Shown here: positions 32,827-39,462 of the stretch, one piece after another
Numbering within the stretch: the first letter of the stretch is position 1
Layout: the number at the start of each line of letters is the position of its first letter
Source of the DNA: Jejuia pallidilutea
GTDB lineage: Bacteria; Bacteroidota; Bacteroidia; Flavobacteriales; Flavobacteriaceae
Direction of reading: 5' to 3'
NCBI RefSeq assembly: GCF_002973595.1
Contig: NZ_PVEO01000010.1
Location: forward strand, 1-64,000
DNA length: 64,000 nucleotides
Program-made: the position numbers and the translations under genes
The notes under the pieces: generated by a model
What the model saw: the letters and a program-made list of their open reading frames with translations, nothing else
Databases searched by the model: none
Told to the model about the DNA's origin: nothing

Positions 32827-34152
32827 ATGAAGAAATTAGCATTGCATTGGAAGATTATAATAGGAATGGTTCTTGGAATCATTTTTGGTTTTATTATGAA
32901 TAGTATAAATGGCGGAAAAGGTTTTGTAACAGACTGGATTGCGCCATTTGGTACCATATTCATTAATCTTCTAAAACTTATTGCTGTACCTTTAATTTTA
33001 GCATCTTTAATTAAAGGAATTTCAGACTTAAAAGACATATCAAAAATAAAATCGATGGGTCTGCGAACCATAGGTATTTACATAGGTACAACCTTAGTAG
33101 CTATTGTTATTGGGTTAAGCATTGTAAATTTTATAAAACCAGGTGAAGGTATGCCGCAAGATACCATTGAAAAAATTAAGGAAAAGTATGAAAACGATGC
33201 AGGTGTAACTGATAAATTAACAAAAGCAGCAGCCCAAAAGGATGCTGGCCCACTACAAGCTTTAGTTGATATTTTTCCAAGTAATATATTTAAAGCATTT
33301 GCAGAAGCATCTATGTTACAAGTAATATTTTTTGCACTCTTTGTTGGCATTTGTTTGTTGTTAATAGGGGAAAAAAGTGCAGAACCCCTTGTAAAGTTCT
33401 TTGATTCGTTGAACGAAGTCGTAATGAAAATGGTAGATTTAATTATGCTTTTTGCACCATACGCTGTTTTTGCGTTATTGGCTAACGTAATTATTGCTTT
33501 TGATGATACGGAAATACTAATTAAATTACTTTTTTATGCCTTTTGTGTTGTAGGTGGTTTAATGCTTATGATTGGTTTTTATTTAAGCCTAGTATGGTTT
33601 TATACAAAAAAATCGCCGCTTTGGTTTTTAAAGGAAATAAGTCCTGCGCAACTGTTGGCGTTTTCAACAAGTAGTAGTGCTGCAACATTACCGGTAACCA
33701 TGGAGCGCGTTGAAGAGCATTTGGGTGTAGATAAAGAAGTATCTGGGTTTGTACTGCCAGTAGGTGCTACGGTTAATATGGATGGAACTAGTTTGTACCA
33801 AGGTATTGCTGCGGTATTTATTATGCAAGTTATTTGGCCAGAAGGTTTAACGTTTACCAATCAGTTAGTAATTGTTGCCACGGCACTATTAGCCTCTATT
33901 GGTAGTGCGGCTGTACCTAGTGCCGGTATGGTTATGTTGGTTATAGTTTTAGAATCTATTGGGTTTCCTGCAGAATTATTACCTATTGGTCTTGCATTAA
34001 TTTTTGCGGTAGATAGACCTTTAGATATGTGCAGAACCGTTGTAAACGTAACTGGTGATGCTACTGTATCTATGTTAGTTGCTAAGTCTTTAGATAAACT
34101 CCACGACCCAAAACCCAAAGAATGGGATGATAATTATGATGCTGTTAAATAG
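32827..34152 (+). CDS. Dicarboxylate/amino acid:cation symporter (DAACS family)
   Basis: About 441 aa from the ATG at 32827; an in-frame TTG at 32806 is less likely. It carries the family hallmarks: an N-terminal LHWKIIIGMVLGIIFG helix, the serine-rich re-entrant loop FSTSSSAATLPVTM, and the substrate/cation motif NMDGTSLYQ. GltP/GltT/DctA relatives import glutamate, aspartate or C4-dicarboxylates with protons or sodium. It lies just upstream of the ATP-grasp cluster and could supply an acidic amino acid substrate for it; this link is inferred from proximity only. Confidence 0.93.
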   Translation: MKKLALHWKIIIGMVLGIIFGFIMNSINGGKGFVTDWIAPFGTIFINLLKLIAVPLILASLIKGISDLKDISKIKSMGLRTIGIYIGTTLVAIVIGLSIVNFIKPGEGMPQDTIEKIKEKYENDAGVTDKLTKAAAQKDAGPLQALVDIFPSNIFKAFAEASMLQVIFFALFVGICLLLIGEKSAEPLVKFFDSLNEVVMKMVDLIMLFAPYAVFALLANVIIAFDDTEILIKLLFYAFCVVGGLMLMIGFYLSLVWFYTKKSPLWFLKEISPAQLLAFSTSSSAATLPVTMERVEEHLGVDKEVSGFVLPVGATVNMDGTSLYQGIAAVFIMQVIWPEGLTFTNQLVIVATALLASIGSAAVPSAGMVMLVIVLESIGFPAELLPIGLALIFAVDRPLDMCRTVVNVTGDATVSMLVAKSLDKLHDPKPKEWDDNYDAVK

Positions 34153-34169: not shown

Positions 34170-34265
34170 AATTGCGTTAGGGATTGTAGTGGAAAGCCCA
34201 CAGCGAGGAACGAGCGAGGACTTGTAGCGTAAAGCCCGACGCCGAGGATAGGAGGCGTAACGCCA
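34170..34265 (+). ncRNA. Conserved flavobacterial structured intergenic element, copy 2
   Basis: GGGATTGTAGTGGAAAGCCC, a GC-rich hairpin, and GGACTTGTAGCGTAAAGCCCG correspond block by block to the copy at 31690-31870. A further hairpin (GACGCC with GGCGT) follows. It sits between the symporter gene and the ATP-grasp gene and is clearly richer in G+C than its surroundings. The strand is taken from the match to copy 1. Confidence 0.55.
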
Positions 34266-34337: not shown

Positions 34338-35375
34338 ATGAATATTTGTTTCATAATGTATCCTTGGGAAGAGATTGACCCAGATAACGATACAACTTTA
34401 GCCCTAATAAAAGAATGTGTAAAACGTAAGCATGGTGTTGCCATGTGTGTGCCAGCTGCTTTAACAATTCGCAATAGTGTAACTACTGCTAATTGTTCAG
34501 TTATAAACCGCATGGACAAAACACCATCGTCTTTAAAATCGTTTTACAATAAAGTTAAGATAAGGGAGGAAATGTTGCCCCTTGCAGGGTTTGATGTTAT
34601 TTTTTTTAGGGCAAATCCGCCATTAGATCCCATTATGCTTAATTTTTTAGATTCTGTAAAGGATGATGTGTTTATTATGAATTCTCTAGAAGGTATGCGG
34701 GAAGCCAATAACAAGCTGTATACGGCAGCTTTTGGAGACGCGCATAGCAATATTATTCCTGCTACACATGTATCGAAAAGTAAGCGTTATTTAATTAAGC
34801 AGATTAAGGAATCTAAAGCTGATAAAATGATTTTAAAACCATTAAATGGTTTTGGAGGGTCTGGTGTTATACTTATCGAGAAATCGGCTATGAGCAATAT
34901 TAATTCATTGCTGGATTTTTATATAACAAACAGTGATGGCACCTCTAGTTATGTAATTTTACAAGATTATATTGAAGGGGCAGACCAAGGCGATGTGCGT
35001 ATTTTAATTTTAAATGGCGAACCTGTTGGCGCTATGAAACGTGTGCCGGGGAACGATGATCACCGTTCTAATGTTTCGGCAGGAGGCAGTGTGCAAAAGC
35101 ATACGCTTACCAAAGAAGAAAAAGCATTATGCAAGCAAATAGGCCCTAAGTTGGTGAATGACGGTCTTTATTTTGTAGGTATTGATGTAATTGGGGGGAA
35201 ATTGGTTGAGGTAAACGTGATGTCTCCAGGAGGTATTACCTATATTAACAAAGTATATAAATTAAAGACAAAAATAGAAGAAAAGGTTATTGATTTTTTA
35301 GAAATGAAAGTAGTTGATAAGCTACAAGCTTTTGATAGGCGCACTAGGTTGCGAAAAGCTGTAGAAGACGCTTAA
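34338..35375 (+). CDS. GshB-like ATP-grasp ligase
   Basis: A 345-aa protein aligning over its length with prokaryotic glutathione synthetase. It has an N-terminal Rossmann-like domain (CFIMYPWEEIDPDNDTTLAL), the ATP-grasp loop KPLNGFGGSG at 167-176, the GDVRILILNGEPVG and SNVSAGG segments, and the metal-binding EVNVMSP at 291-297. Such enzymes join a carboxylate to an amine using ATP. No gshA-type partner is present, so glutathione itself is not assured as the product. It is the first of four same-strand genes that include an N-formylglutamate-amidohydrolase-like enzyme and a QEGLA peptidase. Confidence 0.88.
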   Translation: MNICFIMYPWEEIDPDNDTTLALIKECVKRKHGVAMCVPAALTIRNSVTTANCSVINRMDKTPSSLKSFYNKVKIREEMLPLAGFDVIFFRANPPLDPIMLNFLDSVKDDVFIMNSLEGMREANNKLYTAAFGDAHSNIIPATHVSKSKRYLIKQIKESKADKMILKPLNGFGGSGVILIEKSAMSNINSLLDFYITNSDGTSSYVILQDYIEGADQGDVRILILNGEPVGAMKRVPGNDDHRSNVSAGGSVQKHTLTKEEKALCKQIGPKLVNDGLYFVGIDVIGGKLVEVNVMSPGGITYINKVYKLKTKIEEKVIDFLEMKVVDKLQAFDRRTRLRKAVEDA

Positions 35376-35453
35376 TAGTTTTAATTACAGCAGTAATTTT
35401 TTAGTAAAAACAATTCTATTTTAAAACAAAGTATTTTGCGTTTTTAGATAATA

Positions 35454-36608
35454 ATGAACATTATATTAACATCACCTTTGGTTTCGGTAAACTGGCTTCA
35501 CGAAAAACTGGGAGCCAACAACCTTGTTGTGCTAGATGGCACAATAGCAAAAACTTTTAATGCACTTTCGCAACAAATACCAACAGCACGATTTTTTGAT
35601 ATTAAGCAAAAATTTAGCGATACATCCAATGCTTTTCCTAGCGCGTTTCCTTCGGAGCACCAGTTTCAAACAGAAGCGCAAAACCTGGGTATTAACCAAG
35701 ATAGTGCTATAGTGGTTTATGATGATAAAGGCATATATTCTAGTGCGCGTGTATGGTGGCTATTTAAAGCCTTTGGGTTTAGTAACATCGCTGTATTAGA
35801 TGGTGGATTTCCTGAGTGGAAAAAGGCTGGTTTCCCAATTGAAAATGCAGCACCTTATAATGGCAATAAAGGTAGCTTTAAGGCATCGCTTCAGCCAAAT
35901 TACATGAAGTTTTTCGATGATATTAAAACAGCCTCAGAACATAAAACCCATAAAATAATTGATGCACGTTCTTCCGATAGATTTAATTGTAAAGTACCAG
36001 AACCAAGAGAGGGTTTACGCCGAGGTACTATTCCAAATTCGGTAAACTTGCCCTTTACTAATTTGTTAGAGCATGGTAGATTTAAGTCTAAAAAAGAAAT
36101 AGCAAAAGCGTTTTATATGTTGGCAGAACCAGACGAGGCTATAATTTTTTCATGTGGCTCTGGTATTACTGCATGTGTTTTAGCTTTGGGCGCAGAACTA
36201 TCGGGCTATAAAAACATTTCGGTGTACGATGGGTCTTGGACAGAATATGGTACTTTAACCTCTGGTAATATGGAACAACCCAAAACATGGACAAAAGACG
36301 AGCTATTGGCATATATTTTAATTTACGTGTCGCATTCAGATTTAAATGAATCACGAAAAGAAACGGCATATATTTTAAGTCGTGTAGATAAAAATGTTTA
36401 CCAACGTGTTTATGAGCAGTTTGAAAAAGATAACGATTACCAAAGCATTCAAAACATTATAGAGGCTGTAAACACGCACGACTATTACAGGAATGATTTA
36501 GCAGATTTATTTGCCGATATTAAATTATTGGCTTTCGCCGACGGTGGTTATAATGAGATGGAAAAGGCTGTATATTCAAATTTAAAAAAGATTTTGAAGG
36601 ATGCATAA
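35454..36608 (+). CDS. Double-rhodanese sulfurtransferase with C-terminal helical domain
   Basis: The 384-aa protein has two rhodanese domains, about residues 8-130 and 160-270. The first lacks a catalytic cysteine (VYDDKGIYSSARVWW). The second has the active Cys234 in CGSGITAC, the loop typical of 3-mercaptopyruvate sulfurtransferases. Unlike ordinary members (about 280 aa) it continues with about 105 helical residues (279-384) ending in LLAFADGGYNEMEKAVYSNL, reminiscent of TerB domains. Its stop overlaps the next ATG by 8 bp, indicating translational coupling to the amidohydrolase gene. Confidence 0.85.
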   Translation: MNIILTSPLVSVNWLHEKLGANNLVVLDGTIAKTFNALSQQIPTARFFDIKQKFSDTSNAFPSAFPSEHQFQTEAQNLGINQDSAIVVYDDKGIYSSARVWWLFKAFGFSNIAVLDGGFPEWKKAGFPIENAAPYNGNKGSFKASLQPNYMKFFDDIKTASEHKTHKIIDARSSDRFNCKVPEPREGLRRGTIPNSVNLPFTNLLEHGRFKSKKEIAKAFYMLAEPDEAIIFSCGSGITACVLALGAELSGYKNISVYDGSWTEYGTLTSGNMEQPKTWTKDELLAYILIYVSHSDLNESRKETAYILSRVDKNVYQRVYEQFEKDNDYQSIQNIIEAVNTHDYYRNDLADLFADIKLLAFADGGYNEMEKAVYSNLKKILKDA

Positions 36609-37428
36609 GCTTTCTGTTTCTGAAATAATCTCTAAAATAAAAGTACTGGAAACTTTTGAAGCCGTAGCAGCCGATTATTCATTCACAATAAAAATTGACG
36701 CATATGTACCTTATGCCTGTGCTGCAATACACAACGGCCATCAATTCAGAAAGGAATTATGGGATAACTGCATGCACACCGAGTATGAGCGTTGGTACGA
36801 AGAGGATCCTGAAACGAAAACCATGGTACAGTCGCATCCCATTGTTATTGCTGGGTGCGATTCTCGTTTTGAGTACGATTTAAATCGCGCACCAGAGGAT
36901 GCTGTGTTTGTAACCGCTTGGGGAAAGCAATTGTGGCATCAACCACTTTCTAAAGCTATGAAAGCCAAAAGCTTAGAAAAACATGCTAACTTTTACAAGG
37001 TAACACATGCATTAATTGAAACTCTTGAGCAAAAATTTGGATTTTGCACCGTTTACGATATGCACAGTTACAATTGGAAACGATGGGATAGAGAAGTGCC
37101 AACTTGGAATTTAGGTACAAGTAACGTAGATAATAAACGGTTTGGAAATGTTATTGAAGAATGGCGACAGGACTTGTCTGAAATTAAGTTTCCTTATGGC
37201 ATAAAATCTACTTCTAAAATTAATGATACGTTTCAAGGTAATGGATATTTCTTAAAATATATAACAAAGAATTTTAAAAATACCTTAGTTTTGGCAACCG
37301 AAATAGCAAAAGTGTATTGTGATGAATACGAGTATGTTATGTTTCCAGAGGTAATAAAAACCGTAGAACAAGAATTAAAGCTTCGTATTCCAAAACATGC
37401 ATTAAGCGTATACAACAGGTTTAAATGA
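36601..37428 (+). CDS. N-formylglutamate amidohydrolase-like protein
   Basis: A 275-aa member of the N-formylglutamate amidohydrolase family with likely metal and catalytic segments DSRFEYDLNR (87-96) and VYDMHSYNW (151-159). The family hydrolyses N-formyl or N-acyl acidic amino acids using zinc. No histidine-degradation genes (hut) are nearby, so classic N-formylglutamate hydrolysis is unlikely to be its only job. It overlaps the sulfurtransferase gene by 8 bp and is followed 7 bp later by the QEGLA peptidase gene. Confidence 0.85.
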   Translation: MHKLSVSEIISKIKVLETFEAVAADYSFTIKIDAYVPYACAAIHNGHQFRKELWDNCMHTEYERWYEEDPETKTMVQSHPIVIAGCDSRFEYDLNRAPEDAVFVTAWGKQLWHQPLSKAMKAKSLEKHANFYKVTHALIETLEQKFGFCTVYDMHSYNWKRWDREVPTWNLGTSNVDNKRFGNVIEEWRQDLSEIKFPYGIKSTSKINDTFQGNGYFLKYITKNFKNTLVLATEIAKVYCDEYEYVMFPEVIKTVEQELKLRIPKHALSVYNRFK

Positions 37429-37435
37429 TAATTTT

Positions 37436-38596
37436 ATGAAGATTGATGACAGTGTAACCACCAAAACACTTTTAGAAATAGATAAAAATATTGATGCGCT
37501 AGTAAAGCAAATAGAATTGTTGAGCTATGTTAATCCAACAAATATAGAAGAAGAGAAGGCACGTTTTTTTGCCTCTAAATACTTAACAGACCCTATTTTT
37601 AAATACCCCAATATTAATTTTGATAAGTTTAAACTTCACAGAAAGTTATTTACGCAACCTATAGAACGTATAGAGGACGAAGATGTTAGAAACCTCTACG
37701 AAGACGTTATTTATACCTATTCTGGGTTAATACAATGTATAGAGAACATTGGTAATGGTAAGGATTTTTACTTTAATAGTTTACACTGTTTTGGAACACC
37801 AACTGAAAATGACGTAGAAAACGCTAAGTTTATCTTGCATTTTGAAGATGAAAACAGAGAATTAGAGCAATTTCAACCTAAATACAGTGCCAAAGATTCT
37901 GAAATCTTTTTTAAGGAATTTTCCAAAAAGTACAATTTTGATTACCATATTGAGTATTCTGATAAGATTTCTGCCATTGCCATGGTTTTAAATAACGTTA
38001 AAACCTTAGTGCTAAATACCAACCACACCTATTCTGAAAACGAAATAGCAGTATTAACCAATCACGAAATAGGAGTACACATGGTAACTACCATGAATGG
38101 ATTGTTGCATCCGTTAAAAATATTTTCGCACGGGCTCCCAAATAACGAGGAAACCCAAGAAGGGCTTGCTGTGTTTTCAGAATATATGAGCAATAATTTA
38201 ACCGTTACACGGCTTAAAGAACTTGCATACCGTGTAATTGCTGTAGACAGTTTAGCTAAAGGGTATCCGTTTTCAAGAACTTTTAGGTTACTGCACAACC
38301 AATACGATTTGGATAGGGAAAGTGCTTTTTATATTACCATTAGGGCGCATCGTGGTGGTGGGTTTACCAAAGATTACTTATACCTTTCGGGTTTAAAAAA
38401 AGTATACGATTATTACCATTCTGGAAAAGATTTAAGCCTCCTCTTAACAGGAAAAGTATCTATAGAATACGCACAAGACATAAAGTCTTTAATAAAAAAA
38501 GGGTATGCAGTTCCTGCAAAACATATTACAGACTCTTACGCTGAGAATAAAAATGCCAACAAAAAGGTAGATTTTATCTTGCGGAGTTTAAAATAG
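37436..38596 (+). CDS. DUF1704 (QEGLA motif) metallopeptidase
   Basis: The 386-aa protein carries HEIGVH at residues 210-215 and the name-giving QEGLA at 241-245, whose Glu supplies a third zinc ligand. The family is annotated as flavohemoglobin-expression-modulating QEGLA protein, and its eukaryotic relatives are tubulin tyrosine carboxypeptidases (MATCAP), so peptidase activity is plausible. It is the last gene of the ATP-grasp cluster. A peptidase encoded next to a peptide-bond-forming ligase suggests formation and trimming of a peptide or peptide tag. Confidence 0.88.
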   Translation: MKIDDSVTTKTLLEIDKNIDALVKQIELLSYVNPTNIEEEKARFFASKYLTDPIFKYPNINFDKFKLHRKLFTQPIERIEDEDVRNLYEDVIYTYSGLIQCIENIGNGKDFYFNSLHCFGTPTENDVENAKFILHFEDENRELEQFQPKYSAKDSEIFFKEFSKKYNFDYHIEYSDKISAIAMVLNNVKTLVLNTNHTYSENEIAVLTNHEIGVHMVTTMNGLLHPLKIFSHGLPNNEETQEGLAVFSEYMSNNLTVTRLKELAYRVIAVDSLAKGYPFSRTFRLLHNQYDLDRESAFYITIRAHRGGGFTKDYLYLSGLKKVYDYYHSGKDLSLLLTGKVSIEYAQDIKSLIKKGYAVPAKHITDSYAENKNANKKVDFILRSLK

Positions 38597-38740: not shown

Positions 38741-38809
38741 GCTCAAAAAAGAAAAAATGTTACCAATTTGGTAATATTTTTTGTTGTATTTGCGACAATT
38801 AACTATAAT

Positions 38810-39103
38810 GTGAGGGCAATAGCGAAATGAACTTTAAGAGATTTTTGGGAAAAACACGCTGATTGTGAAGAGTAACTAAAATCTTGGTTTTGAGAAACTG
38901 AAAAATCCGAATGGAAAAATATTAATGAATTAAAAAATGATTCTCCAAGTGCAAGTATTCTAACGGACAATAGAATTGTTTACAATATTAAAAGAAATAA
39001 CTACAGATTAATTGTAAAATTCAACTTTGAACATCAAATATGCTGGATAAGATTCATCGGAACTCACGCAGAATACGACAAAATAGACGCAAATAATATC
39101 TGA
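38810..39103 (+). pseudogene. higB: HigB-type toxin gene with three in-frame stop codons
   Basis: From GTG at 38810 one frame runs 97 codons to TGA at 39101 without any frameshift and reads as HigB: TLRDFWEKHADCEE, LKSWF, ETEKSEWKNINELKND, DNRIVYNIKRNNYRLIVKF and RFIGTHAEYDKID. It is broken by TGA at 38828, TAA at 38873 and TGA at 38891. At the first and third sites the family usually has Arg, and at the second Gln is plausible, so each stop could be a single C-to-T change (CGA or CAA). HigB is a ribosome-dependent mRNA endonuclease. This copy should be inactive; the antitoxin gene two bases downstream is intact. Confidence 0.85.
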
Positions 39104-39105
39104 TC

Positions 39106-39462
39106 ATGAAAATAACACCAATAAGAAACGAAAAAGACTATCAAAACGCCATAAACAGACTTGAAGAGATTTTTGATGCAAAAAAAGGAACTGAAGAAGG
39201 CGACGAATTGGAAATCCTTTCAATCTTAATTGATAGATATGAAAATGAGAATTTTCCAATTGAAATGCCAGACCCAATTGAGGCAATCAAATTCAGAATG
39301 GAACAAATGGGAATGAAACAAAAAGATTTAGCCGAAGTTGTCGGATTTAAAAGCAGAGTAAGCGAAATTTTGAGTAAAAAACGTAAACTGACTTTAGGTA
39401 TGATAAGAAAATTGAATTCAACTCTTCACATTCCGACTGAAGTTTTGATTCAAGATTATTAA
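39106..39462 (+). CDS. higA: HigA-type antitoxin, XRE/HTH family
   Basis: The 118-aa protein has the HigA N-terminal region (PIRNEKDYQNAINRLEEIFDA, GTEEGDELEIL) and a C-terminal helix-turn-helix (MKQKDLAEVVGFKSRVSEIL) with the family ending IPTEVLIQDY. It would neutralise HigB and repress its own operon. The toxin gene directly upstream is destroyed by three stops, so this is an orphan antitoxin here; it may survive as a regulator or protect against a related toxin. Lack of codon damage indicates it is intact. Confidence 0.9.
   Translation: MKITPIRNEKDYQNAINRLEEIFDAKKGTEEGDELEILSILIDRYENENFPIEMPDPIEAIKFRMEQMGMKQKDLAEVVGFKSRVSEILSKKRKLTLGMIRKLNSTLHIPTEVLIQDY

Follow-up and report, generated by a model that had tools for sequence, protein, structure and literature searches.

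What reaction could be served by a glutathione-synthetase-like ligase, a sulfurtransferase, an N-formylglutamate-amidohydrolase-type hydrolase and a zinc peptidase encoded side by side on one strand? The question is raised by a locus in contig NZ_PVEO01000010.1 of Jejuia pallidilutea (Flavobacteriaceae; assembly GCF_002973595.1), of which positions 1 to 64,000 were analysed and are called the window hereafter. The open reading frames of the window agree with the tight packing described in a first-pass annotation of this DNA, with a 78-bp gap after the ligase gene, an 8-bp overlap between the sulfurtransferase and hydrolase genes and a 7-bp gap before the peptidase gene. Pfam and NCBIfam matches bear out the four families named there, and the glutamate-type importer noticed just upstream is an SDF-family symporter (PF00375). 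Below, the ligase is called LIG, the sulfurtransferase MPST, the hydrolase FG and the peptidase, a member of the DUF1704/MATCAP family, MAT. Our answer, to which we give about even odds (a probability of roughly 0.5), is that the locus is the flavobacterial form of a three-enzyme cassette, LIG-FG-MAT, that would make and break an amide bond joining an amino acid, most likely glutamate or aspartate, to a partner carboxylate, which may belong to a small molecule or to a protein C-terminus.

The three genes form a conserved unit whose linkage is not due to chance. In a survey of 219 Flavobacteriaceae genomes, the ligase was sought with the model NF009110 at E ≤ 1e-30 and the hydrolase with our own FG profile at E ≤ 1e-20, and the places of the MATCAP, ligase and FG matches were compared by script. 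MATCAP gave 134 matches in 119 genomes and the ligase 130 in 112, while the FG profile matched in 97. This gene-neighbourhood survey of DUF1704 found the conserved co-occurrence on which the first-pass annotation had staked its proposal: all 112 genomes with the ligase also have MATCAP, and 123 of the 134 MATCAP matches have a ligase gene on their own strand at a distance of no more than 8 kb. MATCAPs come in two forms, a short one of about 390 residues (open frames of 381–482, plus one contig-end fragment) and a long one (open frames of 608–648 residues), and the gene order is fixed in each. In all 90 linked cases of the short form (one being the contig-end fragment), the ligase lies upstream, and so, directly next to MATCAP, does FG; the ligase lies downstream of all 33 linked long forms. 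The spacing between ligase and short MATCAP is below 1.1 kb in 51 loci, which leaves space for FG only, 1.1–1.5 kb in 5, 1.7–2.06 kb in 18 and larger in 16; in the loci sampled, the gap contains a TerB-like gene, a sulfurtransferase gene, both, or occasionally another gene. MATCAP is less common in the phylum as a whole, where 6 of 118 genomes carry it.

The forty stretches fetched are not a random sample, as they were picked to include each class of ligase-MATCAP distance, 8 of the 11 unlinked matches and a range of long forms. Their architectures are symporter-MATCAP (8), symporter-LIG-FG-MAT (7), symporter-LIG-MPST-FG-MAT (7), symporter-LIG-MPST-TerB-FG-MAT (5), symporter-LIG-TerB-FG-MAT (2), LIG-MPST-TerB-FG-MAT (2), long-MAT-LIG (6) and mixed forms (3). 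Among 571 confirmed relatives in named genomes, the best 80, which are those nearest to the window protein and include several whose loci end at contig ends, have FG in 80 loci, LIG in 76, a same-strand upstream symporter in 61, MPST in 49 and a TerB-like domain in 35. The cassette genes are under purifying selection: of 15 comparisons with three relatives, 11 yielded a dN/dS value, in the range 0.011–0.112; these values are rough because dS exceeded 1 in all 11, while in the other four dS could not be computed.

The cassette occurs in at least two phyla. Plasmid records contain 127 MATCAP and 116 FG records, and their numbers, compared as genus counts and not record by record, are equal in Sinorhizobium (79 each), Rhizobium (11), Ensifer (9), Shinella (5), Aminobacter (3) and Photobacterium, Pararhizobium and Phyllobacterium (2 each); Pseudoalteromonas has nine records for MATCAP and no more than one for FG. 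All three genes were found in 11 of 13 Pseudomonadota plasmid MATCAP loci that were chosen and fetched. The order FG-MAT-LIG is seen in eight of the 13, namely seven from Hyphomicrobiales (Shinella, two Aminobacter, Pararhizobium, two S. meliloti pSymB and R. gallicum) and one Roseateles record titled UNVERIFIED_ORG. One Ensifer locus has all three genes, with the order not read, and two Photobacterium loci combine LIG, 57% identical to that of the window, with an FG-MAT fusion. Together with the linkage counts, the plasmid loci support the earlier treatment of the ligase and the two hydrolases as one unit.

Some further features of the plasmid loci may be mentioned. A second plasmid of Ensifer sp. 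PDNC004 carries an additional cassette-type ligase gene (L172:4001-5047), with neither FG nor MATCAP in its flanks; it was considered as a counter-example and set aside because the strain has the three-gene locus on another plasmid. The cassettes of Pararhizobium (L162) and Roseateles (L173) lie near DUF2934 genes, the former also near a mechanosensitive channel gene and the latter near a gene for a cation/H+ antiporter subunit, neighbours that hint at an osmotic context. Viral contigs gave 13 pattern matches, with no MATCAP relative among them.

MAT belongs to the MATCAP/TMCP family by its PF08014 domain and its HExxxH...EG zinc site, and the HEIGVH and QEGLA motifs reported earlier are both present. 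Among the 130 MATCAPs of at least 350 residues from the fetched loci (127 distinct sequences), 128 have HE(I/V/L)GxH, the other two reading HEMGVH and HEGWIH (divergent Pseudoalteromonas), and 127 have QEG(L/I)(A/S), the other three reading QEGVA or QEGMA. The only PDB sequences that match MAT at E ≤ 0.001 are chains of human KIAA0895L. MAT shares PF08014 and the HExxxH and EG motifs with the MATCAP/TMCP1-2 proteins (KIAA0895L, KIAA0895), but it is bacterial, is encoded in an operon with a ligase where there is no tubulin, and shows weak similarity to them (phmmer E 3.3e-6). According to the excerpted text of PMC10499314, the eukaryotic TMCP1 and TMCP2 are metallocarboxypeptidases that take off C-terminal tyrosine, alanine, glycine and glutamate and shorten glutamate chains. 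The NCBIfam model TIGR02421, named "flavohemoglobin expression-modulating QEGLA motif protein", describes the same protein family, but MAT scores 311.6 bits, below its cut-off of 338.65. The long MATCAPs have a conserved N-terminal part of about 240 residues (e.g., L072:7564-8328); two long forms were scanned with Pfam at E 0.1, and neither showed a family in this part. The assumption that this part is FG was dropped because of this result and because a separate FG gene precedes the long form in L067, L068 and L077.

FG is assigned to the N-formylglutamate amidohydrolase family by its PF05013 score, its fold and its conserved polar residues. The predicted model (pLDDT 92) has its best fold match in the N-formylglutamate amidohydrolase 2q7s (TM 0.70), with a weak match to a bacterial metallo-carboxypeptidase (TM 0.35); the FG profile gave no match among PDB sequences, so that the fold search alone succeeded. 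Among 109 FG proteins of 255–330 residues (106 distinct sequences), 12 of the 16 positions checked are invariant (H44, R89, D93, N95, R96, D153, H155, S156, N208, G213, E234 and E242), and the remainder are less strict (H47 in 106, D87 in 104, D241 in 93, K51 in 91). Four flavobacterial loci of the long form (L066, L070, L071, L072) have, next after the ligase gene, a gene for an AstE/AspA-like protein of about 300 residues in which HGNE and DCH motifs occur, and the four proteins belong to a single family. Pfam was run on two of them and gave 70 and 74 bits for AstE_AspA_cat (cut-off 25), while the other two were assigned by BLAST likeness; the NCBIfam aspartoacylase and desuccinylase models stayed under their cut-offs in one such protein. 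One of these loci has a tandem pair of ligase genes between the long MATCAP and the AstE/AspA-like gene (L066:6310-8463).

LIG has the GSH-S fold and the residues of an ATP-grasp enzyme, and it exceeds the NF009110 cut-off of 408. Among 119 ligases of 330–420 residues from the fetched loci (117 distinct sequences), 14 of 15 positions checked are invariant and the 15th is serine or threonine. Its PDB sequence relatives are headed by GshB, followed by alpha-L-glutamate ligases and RimK proteins. In a tree, 34 ligases fell into three groups: the three annotated GshB proteins, the type A ligases with those of Photobacterium, and the long-form type with Hyphomicrobiales. The tree was rooted at its midpoint and has long GshB branches, which the program flagged, so the sisterhood of the two cassette groups is undecidable from it.

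The core of our explanation is that LIG, MATCAP and FG, or its AstE-like stand-in, would make and break the same type of bond, as judged from their families. The ligase would use ATP to form an acyl-phosphate on a carboxylate and then join the amine of an amino acid to it. MATCAP would take C-terminal residues off the product, and FG, or in some relatives the AstE/AspA-family enzyme, would cut the bond between an acyl group and the nitrogen of an acidic amino acid. The symporter could bring in or recover the acidic amino acid, and the sulfurtransferase-TerB protein might perhaps handle sulfur, if the partner contains cysteine. The reading is based on the conserved linkage, the fixed order, the fusions, the conserved catalytic residues, the purifying selection and the scarcity of gamma-glutamylcysteine synthetases in the hosts (see below); from these we infer the reaction directions, the identity of the amino acid, the cycle and the role of the symporter. 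The suggestion in the first-pass annotation that an amino acid is added to and removed from a protein fits better than its other suggestion, peptide sulfuration, although a protein target is only a special case. If the reading is right, the bacterial kin of a microtubule tail peptidase would acquire a chemical function that can be tested, since what the peptidase cleaves could be produced with the ligase.

Several observations weigh against the amide-bond cassette. The name of the FG family derives from formylglutamate, not from peptides. In eight fetched loci, symporter and MATCAP stand together while both the ligase and FG are missing from the neighbourhood; seven of the genomes concerned gave no match to such a ligase at E ≤ 1e-30. 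In all, the 11 unlinked MATCAPs lie in 11 genomes, seven of which have no such ligase, while G123, G144, G318 and G172 have a linked copy elsewhere. Because MATCAP persists beside the symporter in the eight loci, it can do without the ligase, and it may serve a second purpose or receive its substrate from elsewhere. FG occurs in two genomes (G126, G319) that have no MATCAP and no ligase, 17 of the 22 genomes with only the long form have no match to the short-type FG profile, and the cassettes of the fetched long-form loci L042 and L069 contain no FG and no AstE-like gene. Outside the family, Vibrio sp. HDW18 has an FG-MAT fusion without a ligase, and the Pseudoalteromonas locus is a lone divergent MATCAP. 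Finally, if the two ligase clades are not sisters, the pairing of ligase with MATCAP may have arisen twice.

As a special case of the amide-bond reading, the product could be a small acidic peptide or another non-glutathione solute tied to the osmotic state, the level of which would be set by the enzymes. The excerpted text of PMC10308900 reports that in Photobacterium damselae RM-71, when 1% was compared with 3% NaCl, the gene annotated as GshB (A0J47_RS17020) was up 38.4-fold and the "QEGLA" gene (A0J47_RS17025) 27.5-fold, the former being discussed by the authors as glutathione synthetase. These adjoining locus tags suggest the order ligase and FG-MATCAP fusion seen in the two other Photobacterium. 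This salt dependence, the acidic-amino-acid-type symporter of the flavobacterial locus and the small-molecule fold of the ligase all suit a solute; yet induction takes place at low salt, where a compatible solute is not expected to be made, and no metabolite is known. We therefore regard a solute as a tentative and rather unlikely variant. If the amide-bond reading is right, the strong salt response published under the name of GshB points to another pathway.

Protein tagging, the other special case, in which the ligase would add residues to a protein C-terminus or side chain and MAT and FG would erase them, is likened to the action of RimK on S6 and, as a bacterial counterpart, to the tubulin tail cycle. 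It would suit the MATCAP relatives, which deglutamylate and act on protein tails, and the ligase, whose PDB relatives after GshB are alpha-L-glutamate ligases and RimK proteins; RimK itself was up 52-fold in the P. damselae salt comparison (excerpted text of PMC10308900). Still, the nearest kin of the ligase is GshB, which acts on small molecules, and the cassette encodes no candidate protein substrate, and we consider tagging unlikely. Less likely again is a more specific, salt-responsive cycle of writing and erasing, in which the ligase would add acidic residues to one specific protein or to an oligo-acid chain as it grows, MATCAP would shorten the chain and the N-formylglutamate-amidohydrolase-type or AstE/AspA-type enzyme would remove the first residue; such a cycle could be the prokaryotic equivalent of the way in which TTLL and TMCP/CCP enzymes share the work on tubulin tails. 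Were it true, gshB-annotated genes in such cassettes would be misnamed, and the cassette might be a bacterial setting of the MATCAP family that preceded its microtubule role.

A more familiar assignment is glutathione metabolism, with LIG as GshB, FG and MAT degrading glutathione and the sulfurtransferase handling cysteine. LIG scores just above the cut-off of the GshB equivalog NF003573 (279 against 272), and like E. coli GshB (1gsa) it has the GSH-S fold, the GshB residues R210, R225, R233, N235, D273, E281 and N283 aligning with invariant residues of the cassette ligases. Against this, LIG falls below TIGR01380 (233 against 299), and the cassette ligases form two clades apart from the three annotated GshB proteins, with the rooting and branch lengths as stated above. 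Unlike GshB, the cassette ligase has MATCAP as a constant and FG as a usual partner, whereas E. coli gshB lies among unrelated genes without FG or MATCAP. Moreover, most cassette hosts lack gamma-glutamylcysteine synthetases of the tested families: classical GshA (PF04262) is absent from all 219 Flavobacteriaceae genomes, in a search whose controls gave signal, and GCS2 occurs in 28 of the 112 ligase genomes and 21 of the remaining 107. PF08886 was also found in none of the 219, a result of little weight as its control gave no signal anywhere. The bacillithiol ligase BshC is present in 215 of the 219. Because of these three distributions (GshA, GCS2, BshC), glutathione is unlikely to be the product of the cassette ligase, and the whole scheme seems to us very improbable. 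The first-pass annotation had named a ligase that simply makes glutathione as the outcome fatal to its proposal; most hosts are without the enzymes that feed glutathione synthetase.

The window's own genome gives a weaker argument against glutathione. The reported absence of gshA is correct for the window's contig, but a divergent GCS2 gene, the genome's sole match, lies on another contig in another operon. This second ligase-hydrolase operon (L170:5708-9071, contig C1) encodes a 481-residue RimK-like ATP-grasp protein, GCS2 and a 240-residue N-formylglutamate amidohydrolase. It resembles the cassette in joining an ATP-grasp ligase with such a hydrolase, whereas the cassette has no GCS2, its ligase is of the GshB type and MATCAP is its constant partner. 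Operons of the ATP-grasp/GCS2/N-formylglutamate amidohydrolase kind are reportedly among the amidoligase neighbourhoods predicted by Iyer et al. in 2009, where a link between DUF1704 and ATP-grasp is also said to have been noted. The absence of hut genes likewise holds for the window's contig but not for the genome, in which a third contig carries a hutH-hutU-hutI operon with a formimidoylglutamase that scores over its cut-off. Formimidoylglutamase bypasses N-formylglutamate and needs no N-formylglutamate amidohydrolase, so this operon still supports the earlier conclusion on FG, which, for all its likeness in domain and fold to the hut-pathway enzyme, is encoded outside the hut operon.

That symporter-MATCAP and ligase-FG are two independent pairs held together by synteny, with no joint pathway, is suggested by the eight loci of symporter and MATCAP and by the often conserved aroC-symporter order around them, but is hardly credible: FG and MATCAP are fused in Vibrio and Photobacterium, Hyphomicrobiales have all three genes in a different order, and tblastn found no symporter of the window's kind in the 13 plasmid loci.

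The remaining two proteins of the locus are listed with the others in Table 1.

Table 1. Genes and the accessory domain of the cassette locus, with positions in the window
Feature	Position	Strand	Basis or remark
SDF-family symporter, acidic-amino-acid/dicarboxylate type	32827..34152	+	PF00375, 416 bits
GshB-like ATP-grasp carboxylate-amine ligase (LIG)	34338..35375	+	GSH-S_N/GSH-S_ATP; NF009110, 451.5 bits
3-Mercaptopyruvate-sulfurtransferase-like double rhodanese with C-terminal TerB-like domain (MPST)	35454..36608	+	Rhodanese, two stretches; accessory
TerB-like helical domain	36288..36605	+	Separate gene or fused in relatives
N-formylglutamate-amidohydrolase-type hydrolase (FG)	36601..37428	+	PF05013, 48.1 bits (cut-off 28.9)
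DUF1704/MATCAP metallocarboxypeptidase-like protein (MAT)	37436..38596	+	PF08014, 318.7 bits (cut-off 27)

The sulfurtransferase has the double rhodanese fold and the CGSGITA loop, as in 3-mercaptopyruvate sulfurtransferase. Its model matches human MPST (4jgt_B) with Z 32.7 and 36% identity, and the loop reads CGSG(I/V)T(A/S) in 54 of 65 relatives and CGSGLT or CGTGIT in the remainder; the PRK11493 equivalog gives 213, under its cut-off of 250. Beyond the two rhodanese stretches, the protein bears a C-terminal TerB-like extension of about 105 residues that the first-pass annotation had missed. It is a likeness only, as Pfam TerB (PF05099) scores 16.8 bits against a cut-off of 24.4 (E 0.0085); no relative was found among PDB sequences (one match, E 0.99), and the fold matches mainly cover the rhodanese part. 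The TerB-like domain is encoded by its own gene in L043, L044 and L049 and is fused in L050-L052 and L054-L056. In the window, the sulfurtransferase gene is probably co-transcribed with the cassette, given its 8-bp overlap with FG. Nevertheless, the sulfurtransferase-TerB protein is a lineage-specific accessory outside the shared core: at most 34 of the 90 linked short loci have room for a sulfurtransferase gene between ligase and MATCAP (the 18 at 1.7–2.06 kb and the 16 larger), in one of the larger gaps (L073) the space is taken by another gene, and no sulfurtransferase of the window's kind was found by tblastn in the 13 plasmid loci. The persulfide donor that had been proposed as part of the pathway therefore does not belong to it in general, and a scheme in which a small peptide is built, sulfurated and trimmed is unsupported as a general mechanism.

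The symporter is usual in the flavobacterial locus and adjoins MATCAP in all eight fetched loci that lack the ligase. The open-reading-frame tool placed its start at a TTG (32806), while the ATG at 32827 gives 441 residues, the usual length in relatives. Its best NCBIfam match is GltP (254.9 bits, under the cut-off of 638), and the motifs SSSAAT, NMDGT, DMCRT and NVTGD are kept. In such symporters, the arginine in the final helix is associated with acidic substrates.

No description of the cassette was found in the open-licence PMC literature on DUF1704, MATCAP, QEGLA, N-formylglutamate amidohydrolase or amidoligases with ATP-grasp, and the excerpted text of PMC4431377 mentions neither carboxypeptidase nor formylglutamate. 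The linkage of DUF1704 with ATP-grasp enzymes is not claimed here as new; the present contribution lies in the counts, in the finding of the symporter and of the variant with the sulfurtransferase-TerB protein, in the exchange of FG for AstE and in connecting the cassette with the published salt response. If our reading is right, the labels "glutathione synthase" and "flavohemoglobin expression-modulating" mislead in such cassettes.

An identity of the cassette as a defence system was considered and rejected, since the PADLOC models gave nothing convincing: among the four cassette proteins only MAT matched, and weakly (Csn2, E 0.00087). Between the symporter and ligase genes, a short dispersed repeat (34186-34262) is found at 17 places of the genome at E ≤ 1e-3, itself included. 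Downstream of the cassette, a frame resembling a HigB-type toxin (38801-39105) is broken by three stops and stands just before an intact helix-turn-helix protein (39106-39462) that matches the PADLOC model PD-Lambda-2_B with E 5.5e-46.

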